IMG/VR virus record: IMGVR_UViG_3300031918_000116
Location: 1 to 28,789 of that record
Length of the DNA stretch: 28,789 bases
Direction: 5' to 3' (one strand)
Source: a virus
The notes beneath the pieces are model-generated. The model worked only from the letters and a program-made list of their open reading frames with translations, was not told the origin of the DNA and made no database searches. Made by a program: the position numbers and the translations under genes. This document shows positions 1 through 20,606 of the stretch, one piece after another. Position 1 is the first letter of the stretch; each line of letters starts with the position of its first letter.

Positions 1-1047
1 TCAAAGTGCTGTGGACAGGAATCATTACGCGACTTGCAGATAGCATTTCAGCGATTCTTTTCAAAGAAGTCTGGTTATCCAAAGTTTAAGAAACGTGGGC
101 AGAGAGATTCATTTAGATTGACAGGTTCAGTCTACATTGCATCAGACTATGTTCAACTCCCAAATCTAGGAAAGATTAGACTAAAAGAAAAGAACTATCC
201 AATTCTTGAAGGTAAATGCTTGCTATCACAAGCTACAGTTTCAAGACAGTGCGATAGATGGTATGTTTCATTCTTGTTGCCTGAAACAGTTGAAGATCCA
301 AAGTTGGCTTCAATTGAATCCATCGAAGAATGTGATATTCTTGGTGTAGACTTAGGTATAAAAGAATTAGCGATCACCTCGGAAGGTGAGACGTTCGAGA
401 ATCCTAAAGCATACAAGAAACATTTAGTGAAACTCAAAAGGTATCAAAGAATGGTTTCTCGCAGAGCTAAAGGAAGCAAGAATAAGCAGAAAGCAATAAC
501 AAAGTTGTCAAGAGTTCACAAGAGAGTTGCGGACATTCGCAATGACGCTGTGCATAAGTTGACGGCATCTTTGGTGAGAACCAAGCCAAAGGTCATAGTT
601 ATTGAAACATTAAAACCAAAGAACATGTCCAAGAATCATAAACTAGCTAGTGCTGTTTTGGATTCTTCCTTTGGTAAGATCAAGGATACTTTGAAATACA
701 AGTGTGGTTGGAATGGAATCCATTTAATAATGGCTCCAACCTTTTATGCTTCTTCAAAGTATTGCTCAATCTGTGGACATAAGCACAATGAATTAAAACT
801 ATCAGACAGAGAGTGGACTTGTAGTTCATGTGGAACACATCTTGATCGAGATGTCAATGCCGCAAAGAATCTACAATATCTTGGACTCTGGGTGATTGAT
901 AAACACTTGAGCGAAAGCTCAACTAGGCTGAGTTCCAGCCAAAGTTACGCTTGTGGAGATGAAAGGTTACAGTTCCTAACGGAACAGTGTTCGTCTATGA
1001 AACAAGAATTCAAATCGCAAAATCATGCTTTGCATAGTTTTGCATAG
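1..1047 (+). CDS. tnpB: TnpB (IS200/IS605 OrfB) RNA-guided nuclease, 5' truncated by window
   Basis: The frame is open from base 1, so the true start lies upstream of the window. Counting from the TTG at 34, the protein shows the TnpB N-terminal pattern with GYPKFKKR near residue 14, then RuvC motif I (GVDLGIKELAI, D106), motif II (VIVIETLKPKNM, E191), a CxxC...CxxC zinc finger (C244, C247, C263, C266) and motif III (DRDVNAAKN, D271/D273). All catalytic residues are present, so the nuclease is probably active. TnpB proteins cut DNA guided by an RNA made from the element's 3' end and help the element persist. No TnpA transposase is visible. The C-terminal tail (ACGDERLQ..., SMKQEF) is the kind seen in IS605-family OrfB proteins. 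The stop codon lies directly after a right-end hairpin. Confidence 0.93.
   Translation, partial: SKCCGQESLRDLQIAFQRFFSKKSGYPKFKKRGQRDSFRLTGSVYIASDYVQLPNLGKIRLKEKNYPILEGKCLLSQATVSRQCDRWYVSFLLPETVEDPKLASIESIEECDILGVDLGIKELAITSEGETFENPKAYKKHLVKLKRYQRMVSRRAKGSKNKQKAITKLSRVHKRVADIRNDAVHKLTASLVRTKPKVIVIETLKPKNMSKNHKLASAVLDSSFGKIKDTLKYKCGWNGIHLIMAPTFYASSKYCSICGHKHNELKLSDREWTCSSCGTHLDRDVNAAKNLQYLGLWVIDKHLSESSTRLSSSQSYACGDERLQFLTEQCSSMKQEFKSQNHALHSFA
860..1047 (+). ncRNA. Candidate omega/reRNA region of the TnpB element
   Basis: In TnpB elements the guide RNA scaffold overlaps the 3' end of tnpB and runs to the right end, with the guide taken from flanking DNA. Here this stretch contains several short inverted repeats, for example TTGAGCGAAAGCTCAA near 907-922 and the terminal hairpin at 1017-1043. 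Assignment is by family architecture, and the 5' limit is a guess. The predicted guide would begin just after about 1047, in the interrupted gene. Confidence 0.35.
1017..1043 (+). mobile_element. IS605-type right-end subterminal hairpin
   Basis: GCAAAA (1017-1022) pairs with TTTTGC (1038-1043), and ATGC (1025-1028) pairs with GCAT (1032-1035) around a TTT loop, leaving one wobble and one mismatch. IS200/IS605 elements end in subterminal hairpins recognised by the Y1 transposase. This one overlaps the last codons of tnpB. The exact right boundary is probably within a few bases of 1047. The left end lies outside the window. Confidence 0.6.
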
Positions 1048-14841: not shown

Positions 14842-15057
14842 TTACCCTTTCTTTCTTTCCAAGCGTCGAATACGTTCGACACGCCCGATATTAAACGCCT
14901 GAAATTTTTCGGACCTCACTGGAAAAGTATTTTCAATGTCAGTGTTTCGTCCAAGTGTGTAGGCCGCAGTTTGCTTCTTAACTAGCTTCTGCAACTTCTT
15001 GATCTCTTTATAGTCCATGTTCATTCTCGATGGTTTAAGGTTAATGTGGAGGTCCAC
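14842..15057 (-). CDS. Unknown small basic protein
   Basis: A 71-residue, Lys/Arg-rich protein ending in RVERIRRLERKKG, not recognised; charge suggests nucleic-acid or acidic-protein contact. The GTG at 15057 is chosen because the box GCTAAATA ends exactly 5 nt upstream and no SD precedes it. The alternative ATGs at 15024 and 15018 would leave a leader of over 30 nt without a good SD. It is the first gene of the PhoH transcript. Confidence 0.65.
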   Translation of the reverse strand: MDLHINLKPSRMNMDYKEIKKLQKLVKKQTAAYTLGRNTDIENTFPVRSEKFQAFNIGRVERIRRLERKKG

Positions 15058-15062
15058 AGCTT

Positions 15063-15079: not shown

Positions 15080-15088
15080 TGCTACAAT
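15080..15088 (+). promoter_or_regulatory. Extended -10 promoter TGCTACAAT
   Basis: TGn abuts TACAAT. Predicted start near 15095 leaves a leader with ACGGAGG, in good position for the GTG at 15109. It resembles TGCTATAAT at 19799. Confidence 0.5.
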
Positions 15089-15930: not shown

Positions 15931-16106
15931 TGGGATTCGCAGTCGAATTCGATTTGTTCATCGGATTTGGTGTGAGTTATTCGAAGTCTGAGTATTGGAG
16001 GATGTTAGTCCTCCATTTGCCGTTCATCGCAATATACTTTTCACTCCCGAGTGAATCTAGTGAAATTAGTGAAGAAGATGACATTGAGGAAAGGCGTAGA
16101 CTGTGA
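15930..16106 (+). CDS. Unknown small protein with hydrophobic segment
   Basis: Starts at the ATG overlapping the previous stop (TAATG). The 58-residue product has two hydrophobic stretches, GFAVEFDLFIGFGVSY and MLVLHLPFIAIYFSL, the second perhaps a membrane segment, then an acidic to basic tail (SEEDDIEERRRL). Its role is unknown. Stop TGA overlaps the GTG of the deaminase gene. Confidence 0.6.
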   Translation: MGFAVEFDLFIGFGVSYSKSEYWRMLVLHLPFIAIYFSLPSESSEISEEDDIEERRRL

Positions 16107-16540
16107 GTATTGGACCTATTCCATCCCATAAGCTAGAAGTATTCAAGAAGATGCTAGTTGAATATGCATCTCTATCCAAAGATCCAAGAACTAAGGTAGG
16201 TGCGATGATTCTTCGTCCTGACTTGTCGATTGTGTCTGAAGGATATAATGGATTTCCTGCAGGATTTCCTGATCTCCCTGAATACTGGAACGATAGGGAC
16301 ATCAAGAATGCACTGGTCATTCATGCTGAAGAGAATGCTCTTGATTACGCAAATTCCATCTACCTACCAGACCATTTGCTGATCTGTTCACACTATCCTT
16401 GCCCTCGATGCGCATCTAAGATCATCAAGCGTAAGATCGCCCACGTTTACTACTTCAACGAGAAGAGGGCAGACCACAACTGCTCACTAACCGATGACGT
16501 TTTTAGTCGCGCTGGAGTGAAAACCTACTTCATTGGTTGA
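16103..16540 (+). CDS. dCMP deaminase
   Basis: The 145-residue protein has HAEENAL (H74, E76) and PCPRC (C100, C103), the zinc site of the cytidine/deoxycytidylate deaminase family, and KDPRTKVGAMI near the start. It converts dCMP to dUMP for thymidylate synthesis, a usual part of T4-like nucleotide metabolism (T4 cd). The GTG start lies in a GTGA overlap with AGGAAAGG upstream. Its stop codon overlaps the -35 box of the next promoter. It is slightly shorter than T4 Cd (193 residues), and all active-site residues are present. Confidence 0.9.
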   Translation: MSIGPIPSHKLEVFKKMLVEYASLSKDPRTKVGAMILRPDLSIVSEGYNGFPAGFPDLPEYWNDRDIKNALVIHAEENALDYANSIYLPDHLLICSHYPCPRCASKIIKRKIAHVYYFNEKRADHNCSLTDDVFSRAGVKTYFIG

Positions 16541-16565
16541 CAATCGACCCTCCTTGTCGTATCTT
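16537..16565 (+). promoter_or_regulatory. Sigma-70-type promoter TTGACA-N17-TATCTT
   Basis: Perfect -35 at 16537-16542 (overlapping the deaminase stop), 17-nt spacer, -10 at 16560-16565. Predicted start is near 16572. The same promoter recurs at 17745 and 26890. Confidence 0.78.
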
Positions 16566-16584
16566 AGGTAAGAACAAGGAGGGT
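16547..16584 (+). promoter_or_regulatory. SD-masking inverted repeat overlapping a promoter
   Basis: ACCCTCCTTGT (16547-16557) is the exact complement of ACAAGGAGGGT (16574-16584), with 16 nt between. The right arm holds the SD of the gene at 16588. The left arm lies wholly in the promoter spacer, so RNA starting near 16572 lacks it, while read-through RNA from the deaminase gene would hide the SD. T4 gene e uses the same logic. Confidence 0.7.
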
Positions 16585-16587
16585 ACT

Positions 16588-17274
16588 ATGAAAATCATCT
16601 GGACCAAAATCAAGAACCCGGAGATGCAGGCTAAGGTCCGCTATCTTTCGGGCGAATTCATGGTACGTCGCGAACTCCACAATCTCTACGGGGATCGGAA
16701 CAGCGAAATCGACGTATACCTCCACGCATTCTCTCACGCATTCTCCGAACTCCGGAAGTGTATCGACGAGAATGAGCTTGTTGAGTACGTTGAGGGTATC
16801 GACGAAGTTTCCGAAATGCTCACTGAATTTGCGGTTGAGAATTTCAAGAACCCTGTCGAGACTAAGGGAGAAACTGTCGACGAATATCAGGAGAAGATCT
16901 GGCTGAACACCTCCAAGGTGTTTGAGCGGTTCGTCGCTCTGATCGCTACTTTCGCATATCACAAGTACAGGTACATGCTGAGTCCTGATGATCGCAAGGT
17001 CGAGGATCGGAACTGCTATTACACTTGGCTTGAGATCAAGAAGTACAATCGAGACAATGGAATTCTCTTCAACTTCACCGATGAGGAACTTCAGGGTACC
17101 ATCTTGACTTGGTATGAGCAGTCGGTCCTTCCGAGGCACCCCGGACTGTTTGAAAAGGTCGACGCTAAGAATGGACACAATTGTTGTGACGTTCTTCAGC
17201 AGTACGCCGGACCCAAGCCTAAGATCCCCGCATCCGAAATGGCAGATGGATATGAATTCGATCTCGGAATCTAA
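16588..17274 (+). CDS. Unknown early protein
   Basis: Start is the ATG at 16588, 5 nt after AAGGAGGG; the open frame continues upstream to 16537, before the predicted transcription start. The 228-residue product is acidic and helical with many Glu, Tyr and Leu, and a Cys pair (NCCDVL) near the C-terminus. I do not recognise it. It has a dedicated strong promoter and an SD controlled by an inverted repeat, which suggests high early expression and a need to stay silent in read-through RNA. Codons look more C/G-ending than in the Nudix gene that follows. Confidence 0.82.
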   Translation: MKIIWTKIKNPEMQAKVRYLSGEFMVRRELHNLYGDRNSEIDVYLHAFSHAFSELRKCIDENELVEYVEGIDEVSEMLTEFAVENFKNPVETKGETVDEYQEKIWLNTSKVFERFVALIATFAYHKYRYMLSPDDRKVEDRNCYYTWLEIKKYNRDNGILFNFTDEELQGTILTWYEQSVLPRHPGLFEKVDAKNGHNCCDVLQQYAGPKPKIPASEMADGYEFDLGI

Positions 17275-17296: not shown

Positions 17297-17758
17297 GTGA
17301 AGTCTTCAGGTTTTCTAATTAATTGTTTCGGGAAATATTTACTATGTCATGCGACATGCTTTAATGGTAGTTTTTCCAGAAACGACGGACATTGGGGTGT
17401 CCCTAAGGGTATTGTCGAAGGCGACGATACTCTTTTAGAAACTGCAATACGAGAAACTGTCGAGGAAACTGGAATTAATATTCCCATGCTTGTTTCTAAG
17501 GGTAATGCGGTGATGTATGAAGATTTACTCTTCAGGTATCGAACTACAAAGAAATCGGTATATGTTTATTATGTAGAGTCAAAAATAGACTTAACTAAAT
17601 CGACACTGAAATGTACATCTAGAATCACCGGAAGTCATTTACCTGAAAACGACGCTTTCTGTTGGGTTGATTGGGATACTGCAAGGGAAATGGTATCCAA
17701 GAGACAGAAAGAACTTTTCTCAGATGATAATCTGAAGAAAATAGTTGACAGAACGTAA
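17297..17758 (+). CDS. Nudix hydrolase
   Basis: The Nudix box starts at the Gly of WGVPKGIVEGDD, continues with TLLETAI and ends in RETVEETGI, fitting Gx5Ex7REUxEExGU with Asp in place of the first Glu. Nudix enzymes hydrolyse nucleoside diphosphates linked to another group (dNTPs, NADH, ADP-ribose, RNA caps); substrate is not readable here. The GTG at 17297 is chosen from the TAAATA box and because the preceding gene ends at 17274. The 153-residue length is normal. It looks more AT-rich than both neighbours, hinting at separate acquisition or late expression. Its last codons contain the -35 box of the RNA ligase promoter. Confidence 0.85.
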   Translation: MKSSGFLINCFGKYLLCHATCFNGSFSRNDGHWGVPKGIVEGDDTLLETAIRETVEETGINIPMLVSKGNAVMYEDLLFRYRTTKKSVYVYYVESKIDLTKSTLKCTSRITGSHLPENDAFCWVDWDTAREMVSKRQKELFSDDNLKKIVDRT

Positions 17759-17773
17759 GACTTCCAGTATCTT
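17745..17773 (+). promoter_or_regulatory. Sigma-70-type promoter TTGACA-N17-TATCTT
   Basis: -35 at 17745-17750, -10 at 17768-17773, predicted start near 17780. A small CTTTC/GAAAG hairpin spans the start site and SD. Confidence 0.78.
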
Positions 17774-17796
17774 TCCTATCAGAAAGGAGGTACGAT

Positions 17797-19008
17797 ATGT
17801 CTACACTGCGTGATTTTTTGAATGAGATGTTCGGTCCAGATAGCGGAGCGACCGTCGAAGATATTAAGACTCGGTTTTCTGCCGATTTTGGAGTTATGGT
17901 CGACGTTGTCGATGAACTGTATCTCTTCAAGTACGACATGATCGCGGTCAAGTGGAATCCAGTCACTTTCGAGTGTCGTGGAACCATCATGGAGCGACTG
18001 TCTGACGGTTCTTGGGAGTATGTCTCTCGACCTCCTGTCAAGTTCTTCAATTTGCGAGAGGGACATTGCCCTTATTCTCAGAAGGAGAACTTCCTTCGAG
18101 ACTTCGAGAATCTTGAATTGGTTCAGAAGGCTGACGGTTCTGCGATTCAGATGTATTTCTGGCGAGGGCAGTGGAGAATCTCCACCCTCGGGAAGATCAT
18201 CCCTTGCAGGGTTAGCGACTATGGGTTCACTTTCGCTGAACTGTTCATGAAGTTGTTTGGGGAAGAGGCGCTCACCAAGGCAAATCCAGAGTTCTGCTAC
18301 TTCCATGAACTCTGCACGAACTACAACATCATCGTCACTCACTATCCTGAGGATTCTATCTTCTTGCTCTTGGCTCGTAACGTCAGAACTGGCGAGTACA
18401 TGTCGACTGCGGAGCTTGACAATGCGGCTGAGGACTTCAATGAGCTTCGTCCGCATCGACTTAAGGTGTCTGAGTTGCCGTTGGTCGAAAGGACGCTAGA
18501 GGCTCTGGAAATGTTCGTAGAGGAGATGGCAACTGACCCTCGATACGGACAGAACCCTGAAGGATTCGTACTTTCGAACCCAGTACCCGTCGGGAAGATG
18601 AAGAATCAGCGTTACCTAGTACTTCACCGCCTAATCGGAGGCGGAGATAAGGGACACACTGTCAATAATCTCCTCGACATGTTCTTCGCAGGTATCATCG
18701 ACGACTTCTATTCTGATCTCACCGAGATGCAGAAGAATGCAATCGAGACTCTGCGCACCAAGATCGTGGGATATAACCCCAGCATCGAGGAATTCCTCCA
18801 GTCATGCAACCTTGGCGAAATTGATCGTAAGACTTTCGCACTGAAGGTGAATGAACTGGGAGATTTGAAGCGATTCAGTGGGTACATGTTCTACAGGTAC
18901 ATGGATCATGACTTTCTGCCGTTCACCGAATGGTTACTGTCTGGAAAGAACAACTCAAGGGTGTGGACAAAGTTCGAAGATCTCTGGAAGTCAGAGTTCG
19001 TCATCTAA
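17797..19008 (+). CDS. rnlA: T4 Rnl1-like RNA ligase
   Basis: The 403-residue protein has nucleotidyltransferase motif I KADGSAI (lysine K111), preceded by FECRGTIME (a RG element as in T4 RnlA), motif III FHELC, motif IV EGFVLSN and motif V KMKNQRYLVL. A C-terminal helical domain of about 120 residues follows, as in T4 Rnl1 (374 residues). Rnl1 joins 5'-phosphate and 3'-hydroxyl RNA ends using ATP and in T4 repairs tRNA cut by the host PrrC nuclease. AAAGGAGG lies 7 nt before the ATG, behind its own early-type promoter. No polynucleotide kinase gene is seen in the window. Confidence 0.88.
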   Translation: MSTLRDFLNEMFGPDSGATVEDIKTRFSADFGVMVDVVDELYLFKYDMIAVKWNPVTFECRGTIMERLSDGSWEYVSRPPVKFFNLREGHCPYSQKENFLRDFENLELVQKADGSAIQMYFWRGQWRISTLGKIIPCRVSDYGFTFAELFMKLFGEEALTKANPEFCYFHELCTNYNIIVTHYPEDSIFLLLARNVRTGEYMSTAELDNAAEDFNELRPHRLKVSELPLVERTLEALEMFVEEMATDPRYGQNPEGFVLSNPVPVGKMKNQRYLVLHRLIGGGDKGHTVNNLLDMFFAGIIDDFYSDLTEMQKNAIETLRTKIVGYNPSIEEFLQSCNLGEIDRKTFALKVNELGDLKRFSGYMFYRYMDHDFLPFTEWLLSGKNNSRVWTKFEDLWKSEFVI

Positions 19009-19781: not shown

Positions 19782-19798
19782 TTCGAAAATCTTTTCCA

Positions 19799-19807
19799 TG
19801 CTATAAT
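19799..19807 (+). promoter_or_regulatory. Extended -10 promoter TGCTATAAT
   Basis: Consensus TATAAT at 19802-19807 with TGn. Predicted start is near 19814, one base before the ATG at 19815, so this transcript too would be nearly leaderless. No SD lies upstream of the gene. Confidence 0.6.
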
Positions 19808-19814
19808 TAATGGC

Positions 19815-20606
19815 ATGGAAAAGATTCAATTTACCGATTTCGAGGCGCATATCAAGGAAATCCAGCCAATAACGCTGGATCTTGCCAATCACTTGTTTTA
19901 CTGCATGAATACTATGCGAGTAAAGGCAAATAATAAGTACACTTACCTATGTCGAGACTCTGAAGGTAAATGGGAACTCCATATTTACAATTACGGATTT
20001 AATTACAGACATAAAGAGGACTATACTTCATACGTCTGCATATATCACGAGACTTGTAGAGAAAATGGATATGCTGAATTATCTTTTAGTGTTAAAGACG
20101 CCACTGTGCGTGGAGTATTTTCGTTTATTGACGATGTACTCACTAAGGAATATGAAAACGCTATAGGGAACGTAGCAAGACTAAGCAAAGTCAACGGTGA
20201 GTGGATATTCGCATCGGGTGTTAAGTTAGATGTAGATATGGGTATGGATTTCGAGGCGCTACGGGCTGAATTGCTAGGGGTGCTTCGAGGCGAAATTCCT
20301 GCAGAAGTGATACAAAATCCAGAAATCGAACCTGAAATTCTTGATGTATTCGACGCAGACGCAATTGAAGAATGCGATAATATCGTAACTGTTCTAGAAT
20401 CACATGAAATCGAATACTATCAAATAGACCCTAGTGATTTGAATAAACTAGCGAAGGCAGTTGTTGCTAGTAGGAAAGAAGGGAATGGGCCTTTTGCTAG
20501 AAATAGTGAAGGTGAATGGATTTCTGAGAATAACGGCAGTGTGATATACTATGATCCATGGAGTACACTATGTGCTTCTAGTGGCAGGTGGATTAAGTTC
20601 AAGTAG
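19815..20606 (+). CDS. Unknown protein
   Basis: A 263-residue protein not recognised. The N-terminal half is rich in Tyr and aromatic residues (YLCRDSEGKWELHIYNYGFN), and similar blocks near the C-terminus (RNSEGEWISENNGSVIYYD, SSGRWIKFK) suggest a repeated small beta motif of the form SEGxWxx. The middle is acidic (about 160-205). Visibly AT-richer than neighbouring ligase genes. Probable start at the ATG just after an extended -10 promoter. Confidence 0.72.
   Translation: MEKIQFTDFEAHIKEIQPITLDLANHLFYCMNTMRVKANNKYTYLCRDSEGKWELHIYNYGFNYRHKEDYTSYVCIYHETCRENGYAELSFSVKDATVRGVFSFIDDVLTKEYENAIGNVARLSKVNGEWIFASGVKLDVDMGMDFEALRAELLGVLRGEIPAEVIQNPEIEPEILDVFDADAIEECDNIVTVLESHEIEYYQIDPSDLNKLAKAVVASRKEGNGPFARNSEGEWISENNGSVIYYDPWSTLCASSGRWIKFK

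Follow-up and report, generated by a model that had tools for sequence, protein, structure and literature searches.

The window analysed here, a stretch of 28,789 nucleotides (positions 1 to 28,789 of IMG/VR record IMGVR_UViG_3300031918_000116), is part of a lineage of jumbo phages, very large uncultured viruses of bacteria. Together with two relatives found in IMG/VR, IMGVR_UViG_3300033562_001181 (36 kb; G001) and IMGVR_UViG_3300048599_000194 (306 kb; G002, with coordinates given on the reverse complement), it forms the set of three phages on which our lineage analysis is based, and the gene order over the region is maintained in all three. Alignments of the PhoH, Nudix, SprT-like and locked proteins led back to these same two phages only, and one distant PhoH match was found in a Virgibacillus genome. 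In the phage GenBank collection, the deaminase and RNA ligase of the window have distant relatives only, and the locked gene described below, compared as DNA and as protein, had no relative there. The window encodes a sigma factor, PhoH, a deaminase, a Nudix protein, a T4-type RNA ligase, and GroES-like and NAD-ligase-like proteins, the last two named from sequence without a family search. An IS605 OrfB/TnpB-like gene lies at the edge of the record (window 34-1047).

The locus of interest begins where an operon on the + strand ends. Its last gene, a dCMP deaminase (16103-16540; PF00383, E 3.9e-17; 72% and 77% identical to the versions in the two relatives), has its stop codon within the -35 box, TTGACA (16537-16542), of a promoter that we call class B. 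A spacer of 17 nt separates this box from the -10 element, TATCTT (16560-16565), so that the promoter as a whole (TTGACA-17-TATCTT) occupies 16537-16565. Wholly within the spacer lies ACCCTCCTTGT (16547-16557), an anti-Shine-Dalgarno (SD) sequence and the left arm of a perfect 11-bp inverted repeat. The right arm, ACAAGGAGGGT (16574-16584), contains the SD, AAGGAGGG (16576-16583), and the 16-nt loop between the arms includes the -10 element and the invariant G before it. Since the deaminase gene stops inside the -35 box, the hairpin is entirely non-coding. Transcription is predicted to start at 16571-16573, around the seventh base after the -10 element, and the gene that follows, hereafter the locked gene, starts at ATG 16588-16590 and runs to 17274. 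Its 228-aa product had no match in Pfam or PHROGs, and its homologs are found in G001 and G002 only (28% and 39% identity). All these features are on the + strand, and the repeat, with its left arm in the spacer and the SD in its right arm, is exactly as the original prediction had described it.

Computed folds show what this arrangement could mean for RNA. The segment 16537-16617 folds at -21.4 kcal/mol (z -2.8), and the mean unpaired probability of the SD is 0.00 in read-through RNA vs 0.77 in RNA starting at ~16572. Similarly, opening the SD costs 14.5-15.7 kcal/mol in the long RNA vs 1.0 in the short one. These values support the earlier proposal that read-through RNA hides the SD, whereas RNA from the local promoter lacks the left arm and leaves it free. 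As in locks of the T4 gene e type, the SD lies in a stable helix of the longer RNA and, given the predicted start at 16571-16573, the 5' strand of that helix is encoded by promoter DNA. Two other readings of the hairpin were discarded: an intrinsic terminator, as the right arm is not followed by a T-run and no terminator was called at the site, and a known RNA family, as no Rfam match at the gathering score was found in the window. On finishing the deaminase at 16540, a ribosome would extend into the left arm, and the hairpin might open as a result.

The local promoter had been taken for a sigma-70 type, a view that we revise. It departs from the canonical form (TTGACA / TATAAT, spacing 16-18) in that its -10 element is TATCTT and its spacing fixed, and it is better described as one copy of a lineage-specific, phage-wide motif, G-TTGAC-N17-G-TATCTT. 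Four perfect copies of TTGACA-N17-TATCTT occur in the window, all on the + strand, and TTGAC-N18-TATCTT occurs seven times in G001, on one strand, with none found for a reversed-pattern control. Among 65 exact copies in G002, 64 are on one strand, compared with one per strand in the control; their spacing is fixed, the G ahead of both elements is nearly invariant, and in 39 of 64 promoters an A stands seven bases after the -10 element, which gives the predicted start. The fixed spacing, the G before both elements and the strand bias in G002 mark class B as a promoter class of the phage, perhaps read by a phage sigma factor.

In each of the three phages, a second motif, class A (TGCTAYAAT), stands before the orthologous first gene of the deaminase operon. 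The candidate in the window, TGCTACAAT (15080-15088, + strand), is an extended -10 element and heads the operon leading into the locked gene. Since class A is kept in three of three phages, it is plausible that a longer co-directional RNA extends across the locked gene. Within the operon, terminator-like calls on the + strand are limited to a single weak site at 15933-15950. A palindrome, TGTGGAGGTCCACA, adjoins the class A promoter at 15045-15058 and has a near-identical copy in G002.

Taken together, these features are probably best read as a two-in-one element, in which 16537-16565 serves as a promoter in DNA and as a translational lock in read-through RNA. As DNA, the segment would start transcription near 16572, giving an mRNA with a short leader and a free SD. 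Polymerase coming from the class A promoter near 15080 would instead run through the deaminase operon, and in its RNA the copied promoter spacer would pair with the SD and block initiation. Expression of the downstream gene would then require the activity of its own promoter, while read-through from the other class, which presumably acts at a different time, would be silenced. Within the lineage, a minority of class B promoters would be arranged in this way.

The relatives offer a first view of whether such a lock is kept. At the orthologous place, G001 has TTGAC-N18-TATCTT with a perfect 10-bp repeat on either side of the -10 element. The perfect arm does not contain the SD; the initiation region is shut by an additional outer pairing of CAGTTGAcGTTCAT (over the -35 box) with ATGAACaTCAACTG (over the start codon). 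The read-through fold has a z of -4.0, and opening costs ~10-12 kcal/mol vs 3.9 in the short RNA, with alternative outer pairings competing in the ensemble. In the best fold of G002 the spacer pairs with the SD and start (SD unpaired 0.01 vs 0.56), and this ortholog is weakly locked, with an opening cost of 6.6 vs 2.6 kcal/mol and a rank of about half. A read-through fold over the ribosome site is therefore found in three of three phages, weak in G002 and strong in the other two, and each time it is built from a different sequence. As the arm sequences differ among the phages, what has been kept is closure of the site and not its sequence. The expectation that relatives would preserve the complementarity of the arms holds clearly in G001 and weakly in G002, with the correction that the perfect arm of G001 leaves out the SD.

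We further compared, for class B promoters with a nearby ribosome-binding site (RBS), the cost of opening the RBS with the promoter's own upstream DNA and with that of other promoters. Across 50 promoters, own DNA gave 8.15 kcal/mol vs 6.84 for swapped DNA (z 4.66). In G002 alone, the promoter group reached a z of 4.03, compared with 0.49, -0.32 and 1.33 for gene starts without a class B promoter. Sliding the same geometry by -400 to +400 gave z values of -0.64 to 2.21 vs 4.59 in place, and a lock gain of at least 10 kcal/mol was seen at 5 sites in place vs 0-2 at shifted windows. Relaxed motif matches (73 sites) gave a z of 4.21, with 9 of the 73 in the top 2% where ~1.5 were expected. Dropping the 8 strongest sites of this relaxed set removes the own-vs-swapped effect, so the lock is a property of a minority of promoters. 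This agrees with the mean SD pairing probability over all promoters, which is not above the swapped control (0.400 vs 0.391): a minority of promoters with very stable folds accounts for the effect, and the idea that SD pairing is raised at class B promoters in general was rejected. The energy of hairpins spanning the start was also rejected as evidence of promoter specificity, given a similar excess at shifted windows, and for this reason we relied on the cost of opening the RBS, controlled with shifted windows and with gene starts lacking the promoter. In the lineage as a whole, some 9-13 promoters carry similar locks, or between about a tenth and a fifth of class B, and the arrangement is hence not unique to the site at 16537-16590.

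One of these sites is the gene for the phage sigma factor (1277-1996). Its class B promoter (1222-1250, + strand) is followed by a second lock, in which GTGCATGAAC (1251-1260) pairs with GTTCATGTGC (1271-1280) over the GTG start at 1277 (1251-1280, + strand; opening 15.6 vs 4.2 kcal/mol, rank 0), and the predicted transcription start (~1257) cuts the left arm. In G002 the ortholog is locked too, through two arms that both differ in sequence (opening 12.4 vs 5.4 kcal/mol). Among all the promoters, the strongest lock is predicted for that of a RIIA-like gene at reverse-complement position 39975 of G002 (record 266278), with an opening cost of 20.4 vs 5.3 kcal/mol. Further locked genes encode a metallophosphoesterase, a Nudix hydrolase and proteins of unknown function, and in the window the class B promoter of the RNA ligase gene carries a weaker read-through fold over the SD (17745-17799, + strand; opening 12.0 vs 4.6 kcal/mol, rank 0.08). 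In several strong locks it is the -10 box itself (AGTATCTTTC) that pairs with the RBS. It is conceivable, with the balance slightly against it, that in this promoter class the -10 element or spacer also serves as an anti-RBS at certain genes, among them an RIIA gene and that of the sigma factor of the phage itself, and that promoter choice alone decides translation in a continuous operon.

A different explanation would place the function of the repeat in transcription: a palindrome around the -10 element could be an operator, form a cruciform or stop incoming polymerase, with cover of the SD a by-product of short leaders. Over 75 promoters, the spacer is indeed more complementary to the first transcribed bases than chance would give, with a peak 6-12 nt after the -10 element (z -5.5), and the signal extends to promoters with long leaders or without an RBS. 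For instance, at reverse-complement position 134132 of G002 (record 172121) a perfect repeat of at least 9 bp (9 bp, or 12 with one wobble) flanks the -10 element, while the SD lies 13 nt downstream of the repeat; this palindrome forms no obvious RBS lock. Since some promoters without a near RBS also carry hairpins across the start, part of the palindrome signal is left unexplained by locking. On the other hand, the arms share no common sequence between sites and the loop varies in length, which does not fit a single DNA-binding protein; the right arm has neither a T-run after it nor a terminator call; and several strong locks join the -10 element itself to the RBS and are not palindromes of spacer and start. 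We therefore regard this explanation as unlikely.

Locks might also arise through neglect. Promoter sequence ahead of the start is outside the working mRNA, so its complementarity to the SD would not be selected against, and TATCTT with a pyrimidine-rich spacer already resembles an anti-SD. That swapped promoters pair with SDs just as well (~0.46 own vs 0.46 swapped) would be expected on this account, as would the local self-complementarity across a point (z -3 to -5.7 at shifted positions), which is general in this genome. It does not predict the own-specific excess over swapped promoters (z 4.2-4.7), absent at shifted windows, nor the retention of orthologous locks with changed sequences, and we consider it improbable. 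Finally, a chance hairpin beside an ordinary promoter is very hard to credit: repeats alone are not rare, with 3 perfect inverted repeats of at least 11 bp (loop 3-30) in the window vs 0.6 per shuffle, but rarity lies in placement, as a perfect match of at least 10 bp between one promoter's -35/spacer and another's downstream DNA has a probability of ~0.0012, and both the window and G001 hold such a repeat at the orthologous promoter despite these odds per pairing, so that exact placement, relatives and genome statistics all disfavour it. The lock in read-through RNA, as originally proposed, is in our view well supported at the level of sequence.

The principle has precedents. In T4, long RNAs started upstream bury the RBS of gene e (lysozyme), soc and gene 49, an arrangement retained in related phages (PMC3014915), and the RBSs of I-TevI, I-TevII, I-TevIII, segB and Aeh1 mobE are sequestered in early or middle RNAs and free in RNA from an adjacent later promoter (PMC2988022). 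The original prediction had named gene e with its late promoter as a model, rightly, in that our locus follows the same logic of hiding the RBS in read-through RNA as both groups (PMC3014915, PMC2988022). The present case differs in lineage, in promoter type and in how the promoter overlaps the arm, as well as in the kinds of genes and in its recurrence. The late promoters of T4 gene e (TATAAATA) are read with gp55, whereas here the promoters are a -35/-10 class of an unrelated jumbo-phage lineage, the arm lies in the spacer or is the -10 element itself, and the arrangement recurs at about a tenth to a fifth of the class. Likewise, the hairpins of I-TevI, segB and mobE guard homing endonucleases, while those described here precede genes for a sigma factor, a RIIA-like protein, a phosphoesterase, a Nudix hydrolase and unknown proteins. 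The seg43 gene of Aeromonas phage 25 has a stable hairpin just upstream of an uncovered RBS, like the inner hairpin of G001, to which G001 adds the outer pairing that closes the initiation region.

Accounts of the T4 switch usually treat it as the property of a few special genes. In this unrelated lineage of giant phages, the same logic seems to recur within one promoter class, and orthologous genes apply it with independent sequences. It thereby becomes possible to test whether promoter DNA is commonly employed by phages as a translational insulator that separates timing in continuous operons. A practical aspect is that RNA-seq coverage over locked genes would overstate their expression.

A number of other sites deserve mention. 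In the window, a 14-bp perfect inverted repeat (19788-19826, + strand; folding z -4.75) surrounds a class A -10 element, with the TATAAT box as its loop (TGCTATAAT) and ATG 19815, which has no SD, in its right arm; the gene appears to be leaderless, and in read-through RNA its start would be closed. At reverse-complement positions 30441 and 30528 of G001, tandem class B promoters have no nearby RBS and possibly precede an RNA gene. Additionally, class B promoters are densely clustered before short genes at ~123-147 kb of the G002 reverse complement, some of them without a clear RBS.
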